DNA of 64,000 bases, taken from NCBI RefSeq assembly GCF_963675585.1, contig NZ_OY776414.1, positions 3,823,001 to 3,887,000 of the forward strand, given 5' to 3'. Below, one piece after another: positions 19,846 to 32,079 of this stretch. Source of the DNA: an uncultured Draconibacterium sp. (lineage in GTDB: Bacteria > Bacteroidota > Bacteroidia > Bacteroidales > Prolixibacteraceae). Under the pieces are notes generated by a model. It worked only from the letters and a program-made list of their open reading frames with translations, did not search any database and was not told the DNA's origin. The position numbers were made by a program, and so were the translations under genes. Positions within the stretch are counted from its first letter, which is position 1. The number at the start of each line of letters is the position of its first letter.

Positions 19846-20304
19846 ATGAATACCACTTCAGCAAATAGCGCAAACAACAAAAGCTTTTCGTTAAAGAAAG
19901 CAGAAAGGCTAAGCAGCAAAAAAATTATTGACAAACTATTTGCCGAAGGCGATTCCATTTTGCAATATCCTTTAAAAATAGTTTTTCTGAAAACAGAACT
20001 CCCAACGAAGTTTCCGGTTCAGGCAGGATTTACTGCCAGCAAAAGAAATTTTAAACGGGCAGTGGCTCGCAATCGGATTAAACGCTTGTTGCGAGAGTCG
20101 TACCGACTACACAAACATATTCTTTACGACCAACTTCATGACCGGCAGCTGGCCATTTTTATACTGTATATCGGAAAAGAAATTCCACAATATACGGCAG
20201 TAGAAAATGCCATAAAAAAAGGATTCCCAAAAATTGTATTACAGCTGGCCGATAAAAAACCAAAAACCCCGTTGCAAACAGAAACAAAAAACCCCGAAGA
20301 ATAA
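19846..20304 (+). CDS. rnpA: Ribonuclease P protein component
   Basis: A 152-residue basic protein that assists the RNase P RNA in trimming tRNA 5' leaders. Family landmarks are LSSKKIIDKLFAEGDS, VQAGFTASKRNFKRAVARNR and IKRLLRESYRLHK, the RNR helix being the RNA-binding signature. The last 17 codons (20255 on) lie inside the left copy of the 127-bp repeat that flanks the insertion sequence. A copy of this 3' end, cut from its gene, sits at 22022-22071 on the other side of the element. Confidence 0.93.
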   Translation: MNTTSANSANNKSFSLKKAERLSSKKIIDKLFAEGDSILQYPLKIVFLKTELPTKFPVQAGFTASKRNFKRAVARNRIKRLLRESYRLHKHILYDQLHDRQLAIFILYIGKEIPQYTAVENAIKKGFPKIVLQLADKKPKTPLQTETKNPEE

Positions 20305-20381
20305 CCTCCGGGGCTCGTAATTTATATTGCTATAACTTTTACGTTTATTCCTGATCCATAATTTCGGTTTGCATACGAACT
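20255..20381. repeat. 127-bp direct repeat, left copy (target duplication of the IS)
   Basis: Identical by eye to 22022-22148 over 127 bases and directly abutting the left inverted end of the element. It contains the last 50 bp of rnpA, the terminator of the aromatic operon, and at 20345-20381 a detached copy of the last 37 bp of the DAHP synthase gene. Base 20254 (A) and bases from 20382 on differ from the other copy, which fixes the ends. Confidence 0.92.
20292..20313 (-). terminator. Duplicated terminator, now downstream of the transposase
   Basis: CCCCG/CGGGG stem extended by AG/CT across one mismatch. On the minus strand it is followed by TTTTTTGTTTC. It is the left copy of the terminator at 22059-22080 and now serves the transposase gene. 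The stem overlaps the last codons of rnpA. Confidence 0.7.
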
Positions 20382-20399: not shown

Positions 20400-21905
20400 T
20401 CACCCAAAATTGAAAAGCTGTGCTAATTTCTTCTGTTGATCGTTAATCAGTAAAATTTGAGCCACAGATTTGCCTTTTACAGTTGCTTTTATCTGATAAA
20501 TTGTTTTGGCAATTTCGATGGCTTTTTCGGGGCTTAATTTTGAGTTCAGACTTTTCAATTGCCTTTCCAATTCTTTGTAGATTTTATAGGCTACAAACGA
20601 GATACAAATGTGTGCTTCAATCCTTCGTTGTGCCCGGTGGTAAATTGGCCTGATTTTTAAATCAGTTTTTGATATGCGGAAAGCTTTTTCGATTTGCCAC
20701 AAATGTCCATAGTTTTCAATTATTTCATCTTTTCCCAGAAAGGCATTTGAAATGTACCCTTTTAAACCATCCCAGGCTGCATCGGCATTATATTTTGTAT
20801 AGTCGATTTCAATATTTATCTCACCATCCATTTTGAGGTATTTGTTATATCCACGGTTGTTGATACTTGACTTGGTCAGCTTTCCTGTCTTTATCCGCTT
20901 TTCTAACTTTTGGAGTCCCTTTTCCCGGTTTTGGCTGTCTTTCTTAGCCCTGCTGTCAGAATAAGTTACAATTAGTTTTAACCCATCTTTTTCGATAACC
21001 GCGCTTTCCCCATTTTTCAAACTTAAAGCCAGTATCTGTTCCTGGATTTGCTTCTTTTCATTTTTGATTCGGGCACCAAGGATAAATTCATAACCTTTTT
21101 CCTGTAATTCTTCAATATTGGCATTGGACAGAAGGCCAGAATCGGCAATGATAACCAGTTGGTCCAACCTGTATTTTTCTTTGAATGCGTCCAGCACAGG
21201 TAGCATGGTGTGTCCTTCAAATTTGTTCCCCTCAAAAATGTCATAGGCAAGCGGATAGCCGTTGCGGCTCACTAAAAGCCCCAATACGATTTGCGGGTTC
21301 TGGTGTTTGCCCTCTTTGGAAAAACCTGTTTTTCTGAGAGTATCTTCATGGTCTATTTCAAAATATAAAGTAGTTACATCATAAAATACGATGGTTACCT
21401 GCCCTCCCAGTACATGTTTTGTATGCTCATAACTAATCTGCTGCACAAGTTCCTTTTGGGTGGAATGCAGTTTGTCCATGTAACGGTAGATTTGTTGCAC
21501 CGGATATTCGAGGTCATGGTATTTTTCAAGATAATCGCTTGTTTTAAGCTTGCTTACCGGGTAGGTTAAACGCGAAAGGACAAGCTGCCTGAAAATCTGG
21601 TCGTCAATAACATTAAAGCCAATATCATCGAAAATCTTACCCAATAGCAGTTCTGTGCCAACTTCAGTGTGTGAATCGATTTGCTGAAAAACAGATTGAA
21701 TCAAATTTGTTTCATCAGAAAAATCAAGTGCAGTTTGACCGCTAAAAGTTGCAATGTAATGATGGCCTTTTTCTGTTAATTCTTTAATGGTCTTTTCATC
21801 ACGGGAACTACCTATTGTTTTTATCAACTTTGGTTTCCCATTTATTTTGGCAATAACCTGCACGCTGATAACACCACTTTTATTTGGCTTTTTCCGGACA
21901 AACAT
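20400..21905 (-). CDS. IS1634 family transposase
   Basis: A DDE transposase of 501 residues if started at the ATG at 21903-21905 (MFVRKKPNKSGVISVQVI), the usual N-terminus of the family; an in-frame ATG at 21938 would add 11 residues. The catalytic RNase H fold shows VTIVFYDVTTLYFE (first Asp), QLVIIADSGLLS (second Asp) and YGHLWQIEKAFRISKTDLK, which matches the IS4 superfamily Y-(2)-R-(3)-E-(6)-K signature except that Leu replaces Arg. No frameshift or internal stop is visible, so it is probably active. The adjoining left repeat supplies a terminator. Confidence 0.93.
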   Translation of the reverse strand: MFVRKKPNKSGVISVQVIAKINGKPKLIKTIGSSRDEKTIKELTEKGHHYIATFSGQTALDFSDETNLIQSVFQQIDSHTEVGTELLLGKIFDDIGFNVIDDQIFRQLVLSRLTYPVSKLKTSDYLEKYHDLEYPVQQIYRYMDKLHSTQKELVQQISYEHTKHVLGGQVTIVFYDVTTLYFEIDHEDTLRKTGFSKEGKHQNPQIVLGLLVSRNGYPLAYDIFEGNKFEGHTMLPVLDAFKEKYRLDQLVIIADSGLLSNANIEELQEKGYEFILGARIKNEKKQIQEQILALSLKNGESAVIEKDGLKLIVTYSDSRAKKDSQNREKGLQKLEKRIKTGKLTKSSINNRGYNKYLKMDGEINIEIDYTKYNADAAWDGLKGYISNAFLGKDEIIENYGHLWQIEKAFRISKTDLKIRPIYHRAQRRIEAHICISFVAYKIYKELERQLKSLNSKLSPEKAIEIAKTIYQIKATVKGKSVAQILLINDQQKKLAQLFNFG

Positions 21906-22007
21906 GCCATAAAGGTATAAAAACAGCTCCTGAGTCACCCAAAAATCGCCTCGAAAAACACTTAACTAACAGACGGAATGAGAGTTATGAAATCGAAATA
22001 TTTAGTT

Positions 22008-22021: not shown

Positions 22022-22148
22022 AAAAACCAAAAACCCCGTTGCAAACAGAAACAAAAAACCCCGAAGAATAACCTCCGGGGCTCGTAATTTATATTGCTAT
22101 AACTTTTACGTTTATTCCTGATCCATAATTTCGGTTTGCATACGAACT
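22022..22148. repeat. 127-bp direct repeat, right copy
   Basis: Second copy of 20255-20381. It carries a non-functional copy of the last 50 bp of rnpA (22022-22071), the native terminator and the true 3' end of the DAHP synthase gene (22112-22148). Confidence 0.92.
22059..22080 (-). terminator. Terminator of the tyrA-DAHP synthase operon
   Basis: Same hairpin as 20292-20313 (CCCCG/CGGGG core). On the minus strand it is followed by TTTTTTG. It lies about 30 bp beyond the DAHP synthase stop. Confidence 0.75.
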
Positions 22149-23203: not shown

Positions 23204-24102
23204 GATTTTTTTGTATAAAGTTTTGTTAATATTTCTTCGTTTTTTACCAAATGCGGATTTTCTCCTTCCAGAATACCTCTGATATTATTGGCACTCCGTA
23301 TTAAATCCCACATTTTTTCATCGTCTTCATCTCGCATACAATCTCTGAATTCGGTGAGGTGTTTTATATAAACATCTAGCGATTCAACAACATACTTCCG
23401 ATTTTGTTGAAAAATAGGATGCCACATGCTTCCAGAACTTTTTGCCAAACGTACGGTTGACCTAAAACCTCCACTTGCCAAATCAAAGATTATGTTTCGG
23501 TCTTCCTTTGCCTGAACGGCATTCGCAAGAGCAAATGCAGCAGCGTGCGGCAAATGCGAAACAAATGCGGTACTATGATCTTGCTCATCTGAAGTCATAT
23601 ATGCAATGTCCATTCCCAGGTTTTGAAACATTTTTTCGACAAGTGCCACGTGCTGCGGACCTGAATCTTCCTGATCGCAAAGGATTGCAATTTTCTCTTT
23701 GAATAAACCTTCGAGTGCGGCACCCGGTCCGGAGTCTTCTGTTCCTGACATGGGATGCGATGGAATAAAATTCTTTCTGCGTTTGTGATCGGCAACCGAA
23801 TCTACCAGGTCCTTTTTTGTTGACCCCATATCGGTTACAGTTGTTCCGCTGTCAATTAAATCGAGCACCTTGGGTAATACTGCCAACACTTTATTTACCG
23901 GTATGGCAATCACAACCAGATCGGTGTTTTTTACTCCTGTCTCCAGGTTTTCAATGCGATCAACCAAACCAAGTTCCAATGCTTGTTTTGCATGTTCTTC
24001 GTTTGTTTCAATACCTACTAATTCGGTAGCAAAACCCGATTTTCGCAAGTCCCGCGCAATTGAGCCACCTATTAGTCCAAGTCCTATTATTGTTACTTTC
24101 AT
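23200..24102 (-). CDS. tyrA: Prephenate dehydrogenase
   Basis: A 300-residue NAD(P)-dependent enzyme that converts prephenate to 4-hydroxyphenylpyruvate on the tyrosine branch. It starts at the ATG at 24100-24102, giving MKVTIIGLGLIGGSIARDL with the GxGxxG loop at residues 7-12. Later landmarks are VVIAIPVNKVLAVLP, VTDMGSTKKDLV and FIPSHPMSGTEDSGP, as in the TyrA family. An upstream ATG at 24132 would place the terminator inside the coding region and is rejected. It is first in the operon with the DAHP synthase/mutase gene and lies behind a Phe/Tyr leader attenuator. Confidence 0.94.
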   Translation of the reverse strand: MKVTIIGLGLIGGSIARDLRKSGFATELVGIETNEEHAKQALELGLVDRIENLETGVKNTDLVVIAIPVNKVLAVLPKVLDLIDSGTTVTDMGSTKKDLVDSVADHKRRKNFIPSHPMSGTEDSGPGAALEGLFKEKIAILCDQEDSGPQHVALVEKMFQNLGMDIAYMTSDEQDHSTAFVSHLPHAAAFALANAVQAKEDRNIIFDLASGGFRSTVRLAKSSGSMWHPIFQQNRKYVVESLDVYIKHLTEFRDCMRDEDDEKMWDLIRSANNIRGILEGENPHLVKNEEILTKLYTKKS

Positions 24103-24134
24103 TTGATTGTATTTTCTGCTGATTTTTTTCAATA

Positions 24135-24166
24135 AAAAAAGGTCCCGAAATTTCGAGACCTTTTTT
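24135..24166 (-). terminator. Attenuator terminator upstream of tyrA
   Basis: Nearly perfect hairpin AAAAAAGGTC-TCGAAA / TTTCGG-GACCTTTTTT (one C-A mismatch) followed by TTTTTTATT in the minus direction. It lies 28 bp after the leader-peptide stop and 32 bp before tyrA, and not at the end of any gene. A GGACC segment in the leader (24217-24221) can pair with GGTCT of the 5' arm (24156-24160), a possible but short antiterminator. Confidence 0.85.
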
Positions 24167-24194
24167 GTAAAATATCTTAAGTTTAAACAATACC

Positions 24195-24266
24195 CTACTT
24201 TTTGATCCCGGTTTCCGGTCCATAATAAAAATAAAAGTAGAAATAGTTGTTATTAAAAACTGTCAT
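24195..24266 (-). CDS. Aromatic leader peptide (Phe/Tyr attenuation)
   Basis: A 23-codon frame, ATG at 24264-24266 and TAG at 24195-24197. It starts MTVFNNN, continues with an unbroken eight-residue run YFYFYFYY, and ends GPETGIKK. Nine of 23 residues are Phe or Tyr, right in front of the tyrosine/phenylalanine pathway operon. A promoter lies just upstream and a terminator just downstream. This is the layout of amino-acid-sensing attenuators such as pheL or trpL: ribosome stalling in the aromatic run when charged tRNA-Tyr or tRNA-Phe is scarce would let transcription proceed into tyrA. Confidence 0.85.
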   Translation of the reverse strand: MTVFNNNYFYFYFYYGPETGIKK

Positions 24267-24287
24267 TGCTTTTCAATTTTATGTTAG

Positions 24288-24320
24288 CAAATATAGAGAT
24301 ATATTTTAAAAATGAAACAA
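24288..24320 (-). promoter_or_regulatory. Candidate promoter of the leader-tyrA operon
   Basis: On the minus strand, TATATTTG (24288-24295) fits the Bacteroidota -7 box TAnnTTTG. TTG at 24318-24320 lies 22 bp upstream as a -33 box. Transcription would begin shortly before the leader ATG at 24266. Confidence 0.6.
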
Positions 24321-24364
24321 TCAACCGGTTTTTCGTTTGAAAATTAAACCGAAGTAGCACTAAT

Positions 24365-26845
24365 TTAGTTTTTAATTAACTTTTTCGTCAAAACTGTTTT
24401 CCCGTTTTCGCTAACCTTTACCAAAAACATTCCACCCGTTTGATCCGACAAATCGATATTTTCTTTCAATTCGCCAAAAACGTCTTGTTTTACAACTTCA
24501 TACACTTTGCGGCCAAATAAATCAAACACTTCAATTTGTATGTCAGCTAATCTTTCGATGCCACTAATATCAATGGCAAATGACGAATTGAACGGATTCG
24601 GATAAACCATTATTTGGCCCCGATCGAGCACTTTCGTGTCTGCAGCTAAACCTTGCTGAATAATTAAATTGTCGATTGCCCAGCCCCAGCCTGAAGCATA
24701 AGGATCGGAATACAAACGGAAGCGAATTAAAATGGTATCGCCGGCTGCAAAATTACCGTTGTCTAACAAATCAATTTCACGATTAAAAAACAGGTCGGAA
24801 CTACCTTCTGACAATGATACCTGGTCTACAATATTCTCGTTGTACTTGCTTCTCCAGGCAATCTTTGAGCCCGAGTCGTAACCATCGAACAGAGGAAGCC
24901 AACTCTCACCAAAGGTTTTACTCCCTTCAACGATTACATAATCCCAGAATTCATCGTCGCCGTATTTCGAAAGTAATTCACCTGGCTCAACCAACACAAC
25001 TTCATCATAAGTCATGGTTCCCGATTCTTTTAAAATAATGGGGCGTTTTAAAAAGGTGAAATAATCAATGTCCACGTTATCTTCTCCTGGGCTTAAGTAT
25101 GGATGTATGCTGTGCAAGGCTCCATTTTCGAAACCAGTAGCAGTGTAAACATCAAAATCGGAAATAACAAAATCAGCTGTGCTCTGATTAAAATCGTTTG
25201 TATAGCTAACTACCGGATCAAAAATAGATTCAACCTTATAAGAGAACGTATTTTTACCGGATGGTAATCTTGTGTTGTTTTTAGCAGATGATGCATCAAT
25301 AGCAAAAATGGCATACGTTATTTCATCTCCATCTTTCAAATTTTCATTGCTTACGGTAAAATCACCTGAATAGGTATCGGAATATTCGTTTGTTAGTCCG
25401 AAAGGAGTTTGCGCAACACCATTGATGGAATACGTTACATAAACAGTGTCAATTCCAAGATTATCGGAAGCATCAACCTTTATTGACATGGGCTGCCCCA
25501 TTAATAAGAAATACGGAATTGGAGTGTGTTCCAGAACCGGATCTTCAGTATCAGGACCAAAAGTAATACTGTGTATTTCTTTCGGAGCCAGTGCCGGCGA
25601 CGTTTTTACTCGGCCCATTACATCACCCACCTGTACATAATAACTAATGCTGTCGGTGCCCGGAGCTGGATTTAATGTGGCCTGGTATATTCCGTTATCT
25701 TCCAAATCAACAAGTGCCAAACTGTCAATATTCGAGATAAAACCATCGGTAGAATAAATTACATAAAGTGTTTCTTCGTCAATACGATAATCGCTTTCAA
25801 CGCTTATGTCATACTGAATTGGCCCCATAACTTCCATGTCTTTGGGCGGATCGAATCGTATAAAAATATTTCTCCAGCCTATGTCATCCATAATTCCGCG
25901 GGTAATTGGTCCCGGATCGTGAATTGCTTCGGCTCTACCAACAGCATGAGTCATCAAAGCATTGTCGCTGTTGTCGTATGTTGCATCGTTTAAATGGTAA
26001 ACACTTGAACCGCCATCGAATGAATAAGGTGCATATAATCGCGGATTTGCGCCATTGTTCTTTTTGGCAGCAATTGGACTGTTGGCAAACAAACTAAATG
26101 ATTCGAGTGCTCGTTTTAATTCGTTTGTCACATTTTCGTAAAACGATGTATCAACCAATTGACGTCCGCTAAGACCATTCTCAACCAGTAAGTCGAATGA
26201 TGTTGCATCACCGTATTCGAAGAATCCGTACCCGCCAACATTGTCATCAACAAAGAAAAAACCGGTAAATCCAAGACCATGTCCGATCTCGTGTAAAACA
26301 ACCGAAACAAAATCGTATAAAGTATCCGGACAATTTAAATCTGTACCATAATACCAATCAATATTTTTGCTGAAATTGGCCTCCATATCGTAACGGGATG
26401 CACCGTTTAACTCTTGTTTTGCAATTTTTTCTGCAATAGCCACCGGATAATACCTGTCTTTAAACGGTGCATCTTTAAAATTGGAATAGTAGGTTTCGGG
26501 GCCACAGCTTCCCAAAACATTATCATCAAGCGAACCACTCCATACCGCTTTCATCCGAATGGGCATTTCCGATGCGATAATACTTTCCCAGATACTCACT
26601 GCATAGGCAAATGCATTTTTGGCTTCGGGTGTAAATCCGATATAATCAACCTGAATATCTGCAGTTGCATTTTCACCTGATTTTAGTAAAAAATCTTTTG
26701 GCGGCGGTATTTGTGCTCGTTCAACTTTACCGGAAGCATAACACACCGGACATGGTACTTTTACTCCCTGTTTATACTTTTTTTGTTGGGCTGAAGCAGA
26801 AAGAACCACAGCACTAAATATGAGGATAAAAACGACTTTATTCAT
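24365..26845 (-). CDS. Secreted zinc metalloprotease with type IX sorting tail (protease 1)
   Basis: An 826-residue protein from the ATG at 26843-26845 (MNKVVFILIFSAVVLSASAQ, a clean signal peptide); earlier in-frame ATGs give a poor signal. Next is a zinc-knuckle-like CPVCYASGK (Cys32, Cys35), unusual in an exported protein. The catalytic motif is HEIGHGLGF (His185, Glu186, His189); no third metzincin His follows at the standard position. The middle is beta-rich with an M6/MAM-like jelly roll (TYDEVVLVEPGE, WDYVIVEGSKTFGESWLPL, GWGWAIDNL). The last ~80 residues (VYPNPFNSSFAIDI ... GGMFLVKVSENGKTVLTKKL) are a type IX C-terminal sorting domain. A clear paralogue of the product of 27511-29961. 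Confidence 0.88.
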   Translation of the reverse strand: MNKVVFILIFSAVVLSASAQQKKYKQGVKVPCPVCYASGKVERAQIPPPKDFLLKSGENATADIQVDYIGFTPEAKNAFAYAVSIWESIIASEMPIRMKAVWSGSLDDNVLGSCGPETYYSNFKDAPFKDRYYPVAIAEKIAKQELNGASRYDMEANFSKNIDWYYGTDLNCPDTLYDFVSVVLHEIGHGLGFTGFFFVDDNVGGYGFFEYGDATSFDLLVENGLSGRQLVDTSFYENVTNELKRALESFSLFANSPIAAKKNNGANPRLYAPYSFDGGSSVYHLNDATYDNSDNALMTHAVGRAEAIHDPGPITRGIMDDIGWRNIFIRFDPPKDMEVMGPIQYDISVESDYRIDEETLYVIYSTDGFISNIDSLALVDLEDNGIYQATLNPAPGTDSISYYVQVGDVMGRVKTSPALAPKEIHSITFGPDTEDPVLEHTPIPYFLLMGQPMSIKVDASDNLGIDTVYVTYSINGVAQTPFGLTNEYSDTYSGDFTVSNENLKDGDEITYAIFAIDASSAKNNTRLPSGKNTFSYKVESIFDPVVSYTNDFNQSTADFVISDFDVYTATGFENGALHSIHPYLSPGEDNVDIDYFTFLKRPIILKESGTMTYDEVVLVEPGELLSKYGDDEFWDYVIVEGSKTFGESWLPLFDGYDSGSKIAWRSKYNENIVDQVSLSEGSSDLFFNREIDLLDNGNFAAGDTILIRFRLYSDPYASGWGWAIDNLIIQQGLAADTKVLDRGQIMVYPNPFNSSFAIDISGIERLADIQIEVFDLFGRKVYEVVKQDVFGELKENIDLSDQTGGMFLVKVSENGKTVLTKKLIKN

Positions 26846-26951
26846 CATTGTTTTAAAAGTTTCTAGCATAACTCTGATAATTGGCAAAAGTTCGAATTTA
26901 GTTCAATAAATTCAAATATTTTAACAACTATTTCACTTTTATAAAACAAAA

Positions 26952-26976
26952 AAATGCCGGAATAAATCCGGCATTT
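26952..26976 (-). terminator. Terminator after the microprotein cluster
   Basis: Perfect 10-bp stem AAATGCCGGA / TCCGGCATTT with a 5-base loop; on the minus strand a run of T follows (TTTTTTTGTTTT). It ends the protease 2-microprotein transcript before protease 1. Confidence 0.88.
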
Positions 26977-27004
26977 CCTAATTTAAGGTTGCAATACCAA
27001 TCAT

Positions 27005-27118
27005 CTAATATTCTAACCTATGCGCTTTTCTTTCTATAATGTATTTATATAATACTATCATTGATGTAACTACACCTCCCAGTGCTGCAATTAATGCTAC
27101 TATTAATAAGGGTTCCAT
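27005..27118 (-). CDS. Membrane microprotein 1 of a tandem triplet (37 aa)
   Basis: A 37-residue protein from the ATG at 27116-27118. It has a hydrophobic helix of about 21 residues starting at Leu4 (LLIVALIAALGGVVTS), then VLYK and a charged tail IIERKAHRLEY. It shares about 21 of 37 residues with each of the other two copies. The most conserved parts are the VTS-x-x-V-x-YK end of the helix and the terminal RLEY. Positive residues after the helix suggest N-out, C-in topology. It is the last gene before the terminator at 26952-26976. I do not recognise the family. Confidence 0.7.
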   Translation of the reverse strand: MEPLLIVALIAALGGVVTSMIVLYKYIIERKAHRLEY

Positions 27119-27193
27119 TATTATTTCTTTTTCGTTTTTCAAATTGTGTAAGTTGATCTGGCATTCTCTCAATAAGAAATACCAGACCAAATA

Positions 27194-27307
27194 TTAATAT
27201 TCAAGTCGCTGTTCTTTTTTGTCCGACAGTAATTTATAAAGTACAATCACTGAAGTTACCAAGCCTGTTAATGCTGCAACAAAACCGATCATTAATAAAG
27301 TTTCCAT
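27194..27307 (-). CDS. Membrane microprotein 2 of a tandem triplet (37 aa)
   Basis: A 37-residue protein, METLLMIGFVAALTGLVTS followed by VIVLYK and then LLSDKKEQRLEY. ATG at 27305-27307, stop TAA at 27194-27196. About 29 of 37 residues match copy 3, with most differences conservative (I/V, L/M, D/E, S/T), the pattern expected of selected coding sequence. Single membrane helix with a basic-acidic tail. The gaps to its neighbours are 75 and 85 bp. Confidence 0.75.
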   Translation of the reverse strand: METLLMIGFVAALTGLVTSVIVLYKLLSDKKEQRLEY

Positions 27308-27392
27308 ACTCTTTAATTTTAATTGTTATTAGCAGTTCTATTCAAACGCCTGGAGATTATTCTTGTCAGATTTAAATCTGAGTTTCTACCGG

Positions 27393-27506
27393 TTAATATT
27401 CTAACCGTTGTTCCTTTTTCTCGGTTAATAACTTGTACATTACTACCATAGAGGTTACTAAACCTACAAAAGCTGCTACAAATCCTACCATTAGTAAAGT
27501 TTCCAT
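27393..27506 (-). CDS. Membrane microprotein 3 of a tandem triplet (37 aa)
   Basis: A 37-residue protein, METLLMVGFVAAFVGLVTS followed by MVVMYK and LLTEKKEQRLEY. Its ATG (27504-27506) lies only four bases after the stop of protease 2 (TAG AATT ATG), so translation is probably coupled and the whole array shares that transcript. Same length and architecture as the other two copies. Confidence 0.78.
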   Translation of the reverse strand: METLLMVGFVAAFVGLVTSMVVMYKLLTEKKEQRLEY

Positions 27507-27510
27507 AATT

Positions 27511-29961
27511 CTAATTTTTTATAATTTTTTGTGTTATTGTATTTGAAATATTATCTGTTATACATGCCATATAAACTCCGGGAGCTACATTGGGCAAATC
27601 AATTTTCATTTTTCGATTGTATGATGCATCGTAACGGGTCTCGCGGAAAACTGTTTTCCCGTATAAATCGGTAACAATAATTTCAACATCAGAAACATCA
27701 TCAGAACCAAATCCCTCAACATAAATACTTTGGTTAAACGGATTTGGATAAATTGACACCTCTTCTGACATTGCAAGTTCTCCTGCATCGGTCGATACTT
27801 CCTGGATGCTTAAATTATCAATTGCCCAGCCCCAGCCTGTAACTGCTTTGTCAGAAGCCAAACGGAAGCGAAATAAAACGGTATCGCCTGCTTCAAACTC
27901 AGTATTTGCAGTAAGGTTAATGGTTTGAGACAAAAACATATTTTCGTGTCCTGAAGCTTCAGAAACTGTACTTTTTAATGAATTGGTGAAGTAAGAATTC
28001 CACAAAGCATCGCTTCCCGAATCGTAACCTTCAGTAACAGGCAACCAGCTTTGGCCATTGTTTTTGCTACCTTCAACAATTACAAAATCCCAAAACATTT
28101 CTTCAGTATAGCTTGTTCCGTCTTCACCTGGCTCAACCAATACAACTTCATCAAAACTCATTAATCCATTCTCTTCAATAATAATTGGATACTTTAGCTG
28201 AGCAATCAGATTGTATTTTTCATTTTCGATGTTTGATTCAGGATATGGACTTACAGTATGTAAATTTCCGTTTGAAAAACCAGTTGGTCTGGTTACTTCA
28301 AAATCAGAAATTTCAAAGTCGTTATTTTCTGTGTCGAAATCAGCAAAATAACCTGTTCTGGCACTTTGTGCTTCAAAAACGTCAACCGTGTAATAACCTG
28401 TTGTTGGCGCGTATCTTTTATTTCCTCTTGCAGTATTGTCTTGTGCTAAAATACGGTACTCAACTACATCGCTTTCTTTTAATCCTTCAGGTAACTGAAT
28501 TTTTCCGGCGTATGAATCGGCAGCCATTTTATTTAACGCTACTTTTTCAAATACCTCACCATTTATTTTGTACTCAACTTTTACAGTTTCAATACCAACG
28601 TTATCGGTGGCAATTGCATCTAAATCGAGCACAGGGTGCGAAGTAGCCAGTAATTTCTCCGGATTGTGTTTTAAAACCGGAGGATTGTAATCAGGACCAA
28701 TTTTAAAACTGTACATTCTTTCAGGAGCTCTGTCGGGACAAGTAAATAGAACATTACTGCTTGATTTCGCCTCGTAATAATATTGAAACTTTCCACTCTT
28801 GTTATTCAAAGGAATTTCGCCTTCGAATTGTTTGCTGTTTGAGTTATAAGAAAGAGTAACTGTTTGTGAGCTTGTAAAGTTATCAGTTGAATAGTTTAGC
28901 TTAACTGATGACATGTTAATATCCAACTCGCTGTTAACCTGAACAGAAACAGGAAGTTTTTCGCATGTTGTTTCAAAATCTTTAATTTCTGCTCCCTCAA
29001 TACTTAACGACTTCCAACCAAACTCGGCCAATAAAGCCAAGGTTTTATCGCCAGGATGATGAATAGCTTCTCCTTTAAAAATAAATGGACTCATTAATGC
29101 ATTTGCATCACCTGCTTGAAATCCGGTTTCGTGGTAGTGGTAAATACTGGTTCCTGAATTCCAGTGAGAAGGAGCATAAACATTCTCTTTTGTTTGCTCG
29201 TTATTGCTTTTCAGTAATAATTTTTCTGATTCCAACTGATTTTTAAGTGCCGCTGATGGCATTGCAAAATTGCTTTCATCAGAAATTTTCTGGTTCATTG
29301 AATTGTATACATAAACATCATAAATGCTTGGCACTCCATTGGAGCTTTTCAAATTTCCAACACCGTTTTCAACAGTGAAGAATCCTGCAAAACCAAGTCC
29401 ATGAACCATTTCGTGTAATACCACAGTTACCAGGTCGTACTGGCTTGAAGGTCCATCGCCATTGGTACCGGTGTACCAATTAATGCTGCTGTTAAATGAA
29501 CAAATAATATCAGGCTCTGATCCGTTAAACTCTTTTTCTGCGAGTTTTTCGACTAAAGCTACAGGGTAATACACATCGGCTAAACGTGCTCCGTCAAAAT
29601 TTTTGTAAAACGAAGAAGGTTTTGTAAAAGCCAAAACGTTAGTACCCAGCGTTTCCCAAGTTGCCTGTACACGAATAGGAACAGGCGATGAAATTAGGTT
29701 TTCATACATTGAGATAGCGTACAAAAATGCTGATTTAGCATTTTCCGGGAAGTTTACGAACTCTACCTGAAAATCAGAATTTAATACTCCGCCCGACTTT
29801 AAATTAAAGTCTGCCGGAGGGGTAAATGATTTTCTAATCTCTTGAAGAGCAATGTTTTCCGGAGCATTGACTGTTGTCAGTTTTTCCGGTTTTTGTTGCT
29901 TCTGTGCCCATACATTGCAAGCGCCAGCAACGATAAGAACAATAAATAAAAAGCGTCTCAT
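27511..29961 (-). CDS. Secreted zinc metalloprotease with type IX sorting tail (protease 2)
   Basis: An 816-residue paralogue of protease 1. Signal peptide residues 1-19 (FIVLIVAGACNVWAQ). Catalytic HEMVHGLGF (His183, Glu184, His187), again without the classical third His. Central beta domains repeat the motif DNVGIETVKVEYKINGEVFE and include the same jelly-roll elements as protease 1 (SFDEVVLVEPGEDG, GWGWAIDNLSI). It ends in a type IX sorting domain (SIYPNPFNQSIYVEG ... VAPGVYMACITDN). The zinc-knuckle-like CxxC near the N-terminus of protease 1 is absent here. It is first in an operon with three membrane microproteins; upstream lies a long duplicated leader. Confidence 0.88.
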   Translation of the reverse strand: MRRFLFIVLIVAGACNVWAQKQQKPEKLTTVNAPENIALQEIRKSFTPPADFNLKSGGVLNSDFQVEFVNFPENAKSAFLYAISMYENLISSPVPIRVQATWETLGTNVLAFTKPSSFYKNFDGARLADVYYPVALVEKLAEKEFNGSEPDIICSFNSSINWYTGTNGDGPSSQYDLVTVVLHEMVHGLGFAGFFTVENGVGNLKSSNGVPSIYDVYVYNSMNQKISDESNFAMPSAALKNQLESEKLLLKSNNEQTKENVYAPSHWNSGTSIYHYHETGFQAGDANALMSPFIFKGEAIHHPGDKTLALLAEFGWKSLSIEGAEIKDFETTCEKLPVSVQVNSELDINMSSVKLNYSTDNFTSSQTVTLSYNSNSKQFEGEIPLNNKSGKFQYYYEAKSSSNVLFTCPDRAPERMYSFKIGPDYNPPVLKHNPEKLLATSHPVLDLDAIATDNVGIETVKVEYKINGEVFEKVALNKMAADSYAGKIQLPEGLKESDVVEYRILAQDNTARGNKRYAPTTGYYTVDVFEAQSARTGYFADFDTENNDFEISDFEVTRPTGFSNGNLHTVSPYPESNIENEKYNLIAQLKYPIIIEENGLMSFDEVVLVEPGEDGTSYTEEMFWDFVIVEGSKNNGQSWLPVTEGYDSGSDALWNSYFTNSLKSTVSEASGHENMFLSQTINLTANTEFEAGDTVLFRFRLASDKAVTGWGWAIDNLSIQEVSTDAGELAMSEEVSIYPNPFNQSIYVEGFGSDDVSDVEIIVTDLYGKTVFRETRYDASYNRKMKIDLPNVAPGVYMACITDNISNTITQKIIKN

Positions 29962-30545
29962 TACAACTTAAATTAGGGTTTGTACTCAAACTCTAATCGA
30001 AGCTTCGATAAAAGCATTGGATAATACAGGATACCCGAAGTCAGTCCTTCATGCTGGTTTCTCTTGTTTCTTCCTGGTTTATCTGATTGATGATTTAAGG
30101 TAATACGATAATCCAGTGGGTTTGTGAAGAATCAAAACATTCCGACACGCGCACTTGCTTCAGCATCAAACTATACTATGTAATTAAAATTTCTGAATCC
30201 TTAAAATTGCGTCCAACAATTGTAAGAATGATTAAATGGTTCTGCTCCATCTTAACTTAAATTAGGGTTTGTAATTCCTCACAAAGTTGAAACATCTTTG
30301 GCGAAATTGCCATTTTTTCTTGCTGAATTGATCAGTTATAAATGCTGAATTCGAATAAGGCGTTCACCTGGTTTTTTGTTTTTTTACTGACTTAAAACCA
30401 GTGGGTTTGTAAAACGTCCAAAATCTATTTCAAAAAACATTTTTACTGTTCAACAAATGTAAAAGGTGCTTTTGATTTTCTGATGATTGTGATTTAATGT
30501 AACCAAAAGCGTCCGCTAAAAACAGTTTCTCATTTATGGGTTTGC
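29962..30545 (-). repeat. Degenerate duplicated leader with ACAAACCC boxes every ~140 bp
   Basis: No convincing gene fills this stretch. On the minus strand an ACAAACCC-type box recurs at plus-strand GGG positions 29976, 30118, 30265, 30403 and, in weaker form, 30538 (spacings 142, 147, 138, 135). Two types alternate. Boxes at 29965-29984 and 30254-30273 share AACTTAAATTAGGGTTTGTA exactly; boxes at 30113-30125 and 30398-30410 share CCAGTGGGTTTGT. The 20-bp box sits just before the protease 2 ATG. Its upstream copy also precedes an ATG, opening a 24-codon frame whose start resembles a decayed signal peptide. The layout suggests tandem duplication of a ~287-bp leader. Confidence 0.6.
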
Positions 30546-30630
30546 GCAGTAAATGTATGAATAAATTTTATTAAACCAAATTTTTTTTCATAAGTTTAGC
30601 CCTCAATCAAAAAAGACAATAAAATATTTT

Positions 30631-32079
30631 ATGAAAATCTTATCAACATGCCTACTGGCTATATTCCTGACACTTACAAGTTTTGCTCAAAAATCGGATA
30701 AAAAATTATACGATGAAATATATCGTCCACAATTTCATTTTACGCCACAAAAAAATTGGCATAACGACCCAAACGGATTGATATATTATGATAATGAATA
30801 CCATATGTTCTACCAATATAACCCAAAAGGCAACGAATGGGGCTACATGCATTGGGGACATACTGTAAGTGCCGATTTACTTCATTGGAAACCGCTGGAT
30901 ATTGCGCTGTACCCTGATGAAAATTCAGAAGACAAAGAAAGATGTACTGCGTTTTCAGGCTCAGCAATTGTTGATGAAAATAACCTTTTAAACAAACAAA
31001 AAGGCGATGTAAAAACACTGGTGGCTTTTTATACCAGTCAACATTGCGGACAACGAATTGCCTACAGTACCGACAAAGGAATAAGCTGGGAAAAATACGA
31101 AGGGAATCCTATTCTTCCTTACGACGAAAAAGATGATGCCCGGGATCCTAAAGTGTTTTGGCACAAGGATTCACAGAAATGGGTGATGGTTTTATACCGC
31201 AAAACTTCGGAAGACGATAAATCAAAAGGTGTTTCAATCTACACCTCTGATAACCTTACTGACTGGAACTGGGAAAGCCACATTGCTGGTTTTTACGAAT
31301 GCCCCGACCTTGTAAAGTTTAAAGTTACAAACCGCCCCGATGAAACAAAATGGGTACTGTTTGATGGAGACGGTAGTTATTTATTGGGTGGTTTTGACGG
31401 AAAAACTTTTACTACTGAAAGTGGCAAACTAAAAAGCGACTGGGGGAAAAACTATTACGCCACACAAACCTGGAGCAACATTCCCGAGAAAGACGGGAGG
31501 ATTTTACAAATTGCATGGATGCGCGACGGAAAATTCCCTGACATGCCTTTTAACGGACAAATGTCGTTCCCATGCGAATTGTCGGTTACCAAGTTTCCAA
31601 CGGGATATAAACTGATTCGCAAACCTGTCGCCGAGCTGGAGCAATTGCATGGGAAAGCGTATTCGTGGGAAAATAAAAATGTTATACCCGGAATTGATGA
31701 AAATAAACTAAAAAAAGTAACCGGTGACTGCCTTCATATTATTGGAGAGTTTGATTTAAAAACTTCGGACAACTTTGGGCTTATGGTTCGGCACAGCTCG
31801 AAAATACCCGGAACCGAAATACTGTATAATGTAAAACGTGGTACACTTTCGGTTTTAGGCTGTACCGTTCCGCTTCCGGCTGTAAACAATAAAATTAAGC
31901 TCGAAGTATTGATAGACCGGGCCTCAATCGAGATTTTTGCCAACGATGGACAGGCTGTAATTTCGAATTGTTTTACTCCTGATGAAAAAGCCAACGATGT
32001 TGTTCTTTTCACAAATGGTGGCGAACTCGGCATCGACAAGTTAGATGTGTACAAAATAGAATCGGTGTGGAACCAATAA
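30631..32079 (+). CDS. Glycoside hydrolase family 32 (levanase / fructan beta-fructosidase)
   Basis: A 482-residue exported enzyme that releases fructose from beta-fructans or sucrose. Signal peptide residues 1-20 (LTLTSFAQ). The five-bladed propeller holds the three catalytic motifs: WHNDPNG (nucleophile Asp46), RDPKVFW (Asp172, transition-state stabiliser) and ECPDL (Glu223, acid/base). The C-terminal beta-sandwich ends with IEIFANDGQAVISNCFTPDE, normal for GH32. Followed ten bases later by a thioredoxin-family gene. No fructose transporter or kinase is nearby. Confidence 0.94.
   Translation: MKILSTCLLAIFLTLTSFAQKSDKKLYDEIYRPQFHFTPQKNWHNDPNGLIYYDNEYHMFYQYNPKGNEWGYMHWGHTVSADLLHWKPLDIALYPDENSEDKERCTAFSGSAIVDENNLLNKQKGDVKTLVAFYTSQHCGQRIAYSTDKGISWEKYEGNPILPYDEKDDARDPKVFWHKDSQKWVMVLYRKTSEDDKSKGVSIYTSDNLTDWNWESHIAGFYECPDLVKFKVTNRPDETKWVLFDGDGSYLLGGFDGKTFTTESGKLKSDWGKNYYATQTWSNIPEKDGRILQIAWMRDGKFPDMPFNGQMSFPCELSVTKFPTGYKLIRKPVAELEQLHGKAYSWENKNVIPGIDENKLKKVTGDCLHIIGEFDLKTSDNFGLMVRHSSKIPGTEILYNVKRGTLSVLGCTVPLPAVNNKIKLEVLIDRASIEIFANDGQAVISNCFTPDEKANDVVLFTNGGELGIDKLDVYKIESVWNQ

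Follow-up and report, generated by a model that had tools for sequence, protein, structure and literature searches.

A conserved 3'-end RNA element that overlaps a predicted membrane microprotein gene and is complementary to the start region of a protease gene in Draconibacterium

In an uncultured Draconibacterium sp., three open reading frames of equal length follow the gene of a protease with a type IX secretion system (T9SS) sorting tail. The locus raises the question of what these frames encode, how firmly they belong to the protease and what the end of the message carries besides them. The window analysed here is the whole stretch of 64,000 nucleotides (64 kb). A sequence-only reading of it had singled out the three tandem microproteins; the most interesting part of the locus is the RNA at the operon end, rather than the three-copy number. 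The features are as follows.

27393-27506, minus strand: microprotein copy 1 (37 aa), starting 4 nt past the stop codon of protease 2 (P2)
27194-27307, minus strand: microprotein copy 2 (37 aa)
27005-27118, minus strand: microprotein copy 3 (37 aa), with final codons that belong to the RNA element
26977-27025, minus strand: hyperconserved 3' RNA element, consisting of GCGCATAGGTT, a hairpin with the copy 3 stop codon and then TATTGCAACCTTAAATTAGG, the segment that is complementary to the start region of P2
26978-27004, minus strand: 8-codon frame (ATG...TAG) directly after the copy 3 stop, ending just before the terminator
26949-26979, minus strand: intrinsic terminator, 13-pair stem and T-run
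27511-29961, minus strand: P2, with signal-peptide-like N-terminus, HEMVHGLGF and T9SS type A sorting tail (aa 737-814)
29959-29983, minus strand: P2 leader ACAAACCCTAATTTAAGTTGTAATG with the start codon at its end, pairing partner of the 3' element
30248-30272, minus strand: repeat of the P2 leader motif some 290 nt upstream, with which a 24-codon ORF (MEQNHL...) begins; speculatively, a possible decoy
24365-26848, minus strand: protease 1 (P1), with HEIGHGLGF and T9SS tail, beyond the terminator and with no microprotein of its own; start codon presumed

All three minus-strand frames were recovered at exactly 37 codons, with 18 of the 37 positions invariant, and the distance of 4 nt between the P2 stop and the first start was as the sequence-only reading had given it. 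The terminator said to close the set was also found downstream of the third frame (26979-26949); the stretch that holds its stem folds with a z score of -3.2, and the scan as a whole gave 5 terminator-like sites versus 4.9 in shuffles, no excess. Differences between copies at codon positions 1/2/3 were 9/1/20, 9/6/19 and 12/6/20, and the Nei-Gojobori estimates were dN 0.13-0.31 with dS 1.4-1.5 or saturated, as expected from the claim of selected coding sequence. Among 14 single-copy relatives, some of them identical in sequence, the differences were 225/118/646 and the median dN/dS was 0.08 (87 of 91 pairs usable). By these substitution patterns, the microprotein frames are coding sequences under purifying selection. 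Two objections had been named in advance, a lack of homologues of conserved length and a lack of third-position bias; since homologues were found and the bias is present, both fail and the observation stands.

The homologues form a real family by profile search, with lengths of 31-51 aa and 37 aa in the closest 21 genomes (the main clade). A first profile built from the copies located the family in Draconibacterium loci L007-L013 (four isolates and three metagenome genomes). With a ten-member profile, matches were obtained in 35 of the 37 genomes of the window's genus and in 42 of the 140 of its family, a count that includes the doubtful G038 and G126, which are among the weakest. The G126 match is a 58-aa frame; that of G038 is a stretch within an 813-aa frame and was taken as chance, as was a match in L014 (Alistipes) within a 450-aa frame. 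The order-level search returned three of 393 genomes (G000, which is the window genome, G017 and G375, the last with a 191-aa frame that looks like chance) and the phylum-level search one of 395, the window's own, so that, at the sensitivity used, the range of the microprotein is limited to a few genera within a single bacterial family. No named family had been recognized from the sequence, and the databases agreed: NCBIfam gave no match and Pfam gave matches below the cut-offs only (UPF0220, DUF5337, Lamp2, a holin and an apicomplexan microprotein). Two PHROGs families were each matched by one of 50 members and none was common to the family, and a PDB sequence search returned one chance-level match (E 0.96). 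The microprotein is thus an unnamed family of one-helix proteins; AlphaFold modelled a single helix over residues 2-35 (mean pLDDT 84). M1 never varies across 50 members, and L4, L5, G15 and S19 are kept in at least 90%. By general rules, A11/A12-G15-S19 would form a small-residue helix face, the usual pattern of helix-helix packing, and the basic tail should sit in the cytoplasm.

The tandem triplication was confirmed for the window genome, but it is not the rule, one copy being the norm in the 45 entries with P2 plus microprotein. Three copies occur in two of them (G000 and G001), two copies at a second locus in three genomes (G008, G011 and G023), and G014 has at least two, split by a contig break.

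The partner, P2, and its paralogue P1 both carry Por_Secre_tail (PF18962; 43.3 and 46.5 bits, cut-off 27) and match TIGR04183 (37.1 and 35.8 bits, cut-off 23), which marks them as T9SS type A cargo. Their matches to the NF038122 metalloproteases are partial (53.2 and 53.4 bits for the two proteases, below the curated cut-off of 80). HExxH, a distant third histidine, a Met-turn and the fold are features of leishmanolysin-like zinc proteases; in an alignment of 20 sequences H183, H187, H275 and M290 are invariant and E184 is nearly so. The HExxHG motif is kept in all protease sequences compared except G002 L116, a P2 paralogue without microprotein that has HDIAH. In a structure search with the protease domain the top PDB match was leishmanolysin, a weak one (E 0.0087, TM 0.30), and no match reached E 0.001.

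The coupling to a T9SS-tailed HExxHGLGF protease that the sequence-only reading had proposed holds across genomes and is specific to P2. A microprotein lies within 100 nt downstream in 40 of 42 P2 genomes (including the ambiguous G118, counted as P2 at 421 vs 416 bits) and, in the per-genome table of fetched loci, beside P2 in 45 of 54 P2 entries; none of 80 P1 entries (56 genomes) has one within 150 nt, these 80 including entries cut by a contig or locus end and repeats of one gene cut differently. The protease search matched 97 genomes, of which the coupling table covers part, with P1-only genera represented by a sample of 20 stretches. Second paralogues in G002, G006, G014, G021, G107, G108 and G109, together with G017 and G118, make up the nine P2 entries without microprotein; in G017 the two genes are on different contigs. 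A diverged microprotein in G095, below the reach of the first profile, was found by its position downstream of the protease; its sequence was joined to the profile used for the coupling table, so its detection there is not independent. The gap between P2 stop and microprotein start is 3-5 nt in 36 of the 45 entries, which makes translational coupling probable; wider gaps occur in G002, G006, G016 and G095 (11-17 nt), at one G132 locus (53 nt) and in a sister genus, four genomes of which have 42-68 nt. L070, L074 and L078-L080 carry the pair at different places in the genome, and the microprotein also accompanies P2 versions of 419-445 aa that retain the catalytic part and the tail. In the seven Draconibacterium loci compared the order P2 - microprotein - P1 and the orientation are constant; P1 is trailed by a gene which we take to be that of prephenate dehydrogenase in six of the seven, L012 being cut before that position.

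These data bear on two other views of the microprotein. It might serve a membrane complex unrelated to P2 and merely be co-expressed with it. Relatives without a neighbouring protease in G010, G012, G013, G014, G017 and G108, and the separate contigs of G017, are what such a role would predict; the complete absence from P1-type entries and the persistence of the P2 link at several loci and with shortened P2 are not, and we consider this view unlikely. The stand-alone relatives were seen at loci L057, L062, L066, L075, L076 and L077. The microprotein could also be a membrane-active peptide, type I toxin-like or holin-like, restrained by RNA. Size, single helix and tandem copies do resemble the Ldr/Fst peptides, and the sub-threshold Pfam match to a holin family had E 0.042 (14.4 bits, cut-off 28.4). 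In type I toxin-antitoxin systems of the Ldr/Fst kind the antisense RNA gene is repeated with each copy; here the spacers between tandem copies differ and promoter-like sites in the scan were no more frequent than in shuffles. The fixed position directly after P2 in 40 of 42 genomes and the strong purifying selection also speak against a toxin or holin, which we rate as very improbable.

The RLEY ending, which had been read as part of the protein signature, is present, but it is not purely a matter of protein. Codons 31, 32, 34 and 35 of the last copy and its stop are AAA, GCG, AGG, TTA and TAG in all 21 genomes of the main clade, that is, synonymously invariant; of the other fixed residues, A8, S19 and L23 are encoded by three or four codons, though L4 and A12 vary in one genome each. 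R and L of the inner copies, in the window as in G001, are encoded by other codons than in the last copy, a natural control by which constraint on the protein and on the RNA can be told apart. The block conserved at the nucleotide level in these genomes runs from AAAGCGCA in the last copy across the stop codon to TTAAATTAGG and is followed by the terminator. Identity over the 21 loci is 0.745 in codons 1-29, 0.956 in nt 88-114 and 0.966 in the 28 nt after the stop. In six loci the 60 nt after the stop are 0.915 identical versus 0.673 for the 60 nt past the terminator; the controls gave 0.741 (P1 3' UTR) and 0.823 (end of the P1 coding sequence). A constraint on the RNA itself is thereby seen at sequence level, and RLEY is an example of such a constraint posing as protein conservation. 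The element is common to copy 3 of the window and G001 and absent from copies 1 and 2, so the triplication is probably older than the split of the two species.

The element consists of a hairpin that contains the stop codon, followed by the terminator; over the five loci folded the two together gave z scores of -4.3 to -5.5. Two terminator stem pairs are changed on both sides, each in two of the 21 aligned loci. The first hairpin has no pair with two-sided changes; its one-sided changes mostly retain A-U or G-U pairs, with six broken cells. A covariance model made one match of at least 90 bits in each of 21 of 140 genomes, the next best match having 35 bits. A search of window positions 24000-31000 with Rfam gave nine matches up to E 5, all far below the gathering scores. 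The 8-codon frame after the copy 3 stop was present, by eye, in the 21 aligned loci; it was considered as an attenuator of P1 and set aside, its changes fitting RNA pairing equally well.

The 3' end is complementary to the P2 start region, with a perfect match of 10-12 nt in all 21 genomes of the main clade. In the window CCTAATTTAAGTTGTAATG (about -16 to +3 of P2) can form 19 pairs with TATTGCAACCTTAAATTAGG, with one bulged base. RNAduplex ranked the P2 leader first of 50 partners of the element (-31.8 kcal/mol), and with a gap-limited score it was first of 49 window leaders, at 17.0 with the next at 11.1. None of 2401 pairs of window leaders and 3' ends reached 17.0 (highest 16.6), nor did any of 3000 shuffles of the element; when leader and element were both shuffled, one of 3000 did. 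A scan of both strands of the window, leaving aside the element's own complement, found one place with a higher score, 19.6, antisense within a kinase-like gene, so that 17.0 is not unique in 128 kb of strand. Over the 21 genomes leader identity is 0.91 at -25 to -1 and 1.0 in the first 6 nt of the gene, and 0.58-0.63 further upstream.

A second leader site, (A)ACCTTTGCGC near -60, matches GCGCAAAGGT(T) of the 3' end perfectly over 10-12 nt in 15 of the 21 genomes, with p values of 0.0000-0.0044 in the five genomes tested; the window genome is without it and has 6 nt only. The site falls in the loop of a possible leader hairpin of ten pairs (92% of cells paired). The covariation score of this hairpin, 0.147 versus 0.093 in shuffles, was as high in one of 500 shuffles; its two pairs changed on both sides were equalled by 62 of 500, and RNAalifold drew the outer six pairs only. 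The two sites stand in the same order in the leader and in the 3' end and can therefore not form a continuous duplex; they would be two separate contacts. Within the main clade there was no clear compensation between changes in the leader and changes in the element.

The region upstream of P2 shows some further regularities. The duplicate of the leader about 290 nt upstream is also present in G001 and G024, and a related copy lies at -680 in G007, G028 and G029 (six of 21 sources in all). In G002 and G006 an upstream ORF starts like the P2 signal peptide. Five CAAACCC motifs (29982-30544, minus strand), half of the window's ten, are all on the P2 sense strand; in 20 of 21 loci checked in relatives the 800 nt ahead of P2 hold four or five of them (L108 has two), and none there is on the opposite strand.

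Pairing across other lineages was assessed in 40 genomes, with 45 P2/microprotein pairs; the contig of G016 lacks the leader, and this genome did not enter any of the pairing tests. Over 15 lineage representatives the leader paired better with its own 3' end than with swapped ones by the gap-limited score (permutation p 0.0044), the scoring window (-32 to +6), the score and the lineage grouping having all been chosen after the main clade was seen; for the ten first-locus lineages of the genus p was 0.014. The own 3' end came first in both swap tests in two of the 15 lineages, the main clade and the G008 second locus, and in G002 it was first in one and second in the other. With RNAduplex, self and swapped pairs were not clearly separated for many genomes; this test, in which the 3' ends of G001, G020 and G014 were set by hand and L129 (G133, P1 and a false small ORF) and L074 (a misread start) were omitted, separates poorly because long loops are allowed, and it was replaced by the gap-limited score.

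Start-region matches were compared with shuffles in 17 representatives, six of which had p < 0.05. The longest perfect matches were 11 nt in G000 (p 0.002), 10 nt in G007 (0.016), 10 nt with a changed core in G002 (0.008), 10 nt in G015 (0.013), 8 nt in G025 (0.039) and 9 nt at the second locus of G023 (0.035); the G008 second locus followed with 9 nt (0.058). The match was not significant (0.26-0.91) in the remaining ten, namely G008, G012, G014, G021, G023, G030, G095, G107 and both G132 loci, so pairing is not universal where the microprotein occurs. By these comparisons one clade has a strong and conserved complementarity, some other lineages also have it, and in ten of the 17 representatives it is not significant.

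The element might be merely a stabilizing hairpin with a terminator; its complementarity with the leader, in AT-rich sequence, would then be due to chance or common ancestry. The ten representatives and the unclear RNAduplex swap test fit this, and a slowly evolving locus could explain part of the conservation; the element is nevertheless conserved above its flanks and the control 3' UTR, two sites are found in 15 of 21 genomes and the permutation test favours the own 3' end. We regard this account as rather unlikely, while giving it real weight. Another possibility is that the complementary segments act as DNA, either as inverted regulator sites or as the ends of an invertible or mobile P2-plus-microprotein cassette. 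They are inverted repeats about 3 kb apart that flank the unit, P2 and microprotein are found at several genomic places, the CAAACCC array lies ahead of P2 and a transposase-like ORF about 2.4 kb beyond P1. Against this, order and orientation are identical in seven loci, the order of the two repeat pairs is not that of terminal repeats, the sites lie at the start codon and just ahead of the terminator, the changes in the first 3' stem mostly preserve pairing as described above, and casual inspection noticed no recombinase gene between the flanking conserved genes. A role as DNA appears distinctly unlikely.

The preferred explanation is a two-layer operon, in which a P2-linked membrane microprotein is combined with RNA pairing between the 3' end and the P2 start that would exert negative feedback on the protease; on the present comparisons we give it about an even chance. 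In the first layer P2, a zinc metalloprotease predicted to be exported by the T9SS, is followed by one or more genes of the one-helix microprotein, whose translation is probably coupled to that of P2. The microprotein most likely oligomerizes in the inner membrane and may assist or restrain P2 in transit through Sec and the T9SS; it would thus be a membrane partner of P2 export or activity. The chaperone, membrane anchor, regulator and signalling peptide of the sequence-only reading are likewise candidate roles. In the second layer the mRNA 3' end, including the last microprotein codons, would act as a conserved hairpin and terminator, with strands able to pair with the start region of P2 and, in many species, with the leader loop as well. 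Such pairing in cells could take place in cis or through a released 3'-end RNA, and P2 translation would be held down in proportion to the amount of complete message. The 3' end would then be bifunctional, finishing a membrane helper of the protease and supplying an RNA that represses its own operon. The fuller proposal, that about 90 nt both complete a new membrane microprotein gene and form a two-site antisense to the P2 leader, so that protease synthesis is self-limited and the duplicated upstream leaders serve as decoys, is put forward with a little less assurance than an even chance would warrant.

Small membrane regulators such as KdpF and MgtS resemble the microprotein in size and in having a single helix, and a partner-type action is proposed here by analogy; unlike them, the P2-linked microprotein matches no named family. 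The same likeness and difference apply to AcrZ, a small membrane regulator according to the part of PMC7267776 used here. For the proteases, NF038122 and T9SS type A cargo are the nearest known groups, with sorting tails above the cut-offs and a partial NF038122 match (53 vs 80 bits).

For the RNA, the closest precedents were taken from excerpts of the literature, with review passages also in PMC9438474. In the icaR mRNA of Staphylococcus aureus a 3' UTR segment is complementary to the message's own translation start region and 5'-3' UTR pairing is described (PMC3868564, in part). Pairing of the icaR type is characterized by a block of initiation and by an RNase III substrate. The P2 operon, too, has a 3' segment with complementarity to the region where translation of its message starts. 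It differs from icaR, as far as those excerpts go, in the perfect matches of 10-12 nt per site, in often having two sites, in its occurrence in Bacteroidota and in an element that overlaps a microprotein gene, and it is known here from sequence alone. OppZ and CarZ of Vibrio cholerae are autoregulatory sRNAs derived from 3' UTRs (PMC7398697, in part). Regulators of the OppZ/CarZ kind are stable processed sRNAs that repress translation. Like them, the P2-operon element lies at the operon 3' end and, in the main clade, has complementarity to a translation start in its own transcript; unlike them, by the portions cited, it overlaps the last cistron and is known as a sequence rather than as an sRNA. 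S. aureus RNAIII (hld) encodes a tiny peptide and has regulatory ends in one RNA (excerpts of the review PMC7821165); compared by description only, the P2-operon 3' end similarly combines tiny-peptide coding with a putative regulatory RNA, here tied to a protease operon, a difference from RNAIII as described in those excerpts. UTR-derived sRNA candidates have been reported for Bacteroides thetaiotaomicron (PMC7366714, in part). A limited search of the open-access literature found no such circuit for T9SS cargo or Bacteroidota, and open-access searches that combined T9SS and microprotein or Draconibacterium and protease, or that asked for small proteins in the family or phylum, returned nothing on this operon.

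An unnamed microprotein family bound to one type of T9SS-tailed protease offers an entry to the question of whether single T9SS cargoes have dedicated inner-membrane partners. The operon is also an instance in Bacteroidota in which pairing of mRNA ends can be tested, and its natural variants include some that retain the complementary segments, some without them and some in which they are replaced.

Elsewhere in the window, the 512-aa transposase-like ORF (by eye; 20400-21938, minus strand) has an rnpA-like gene on one side and aromatic amino acid genes on the other. It is flanked by similar terminator-like sequences of equal score (20288-20353 and 22055-22120), which look as if the transposase-like insertion had duplicated them.
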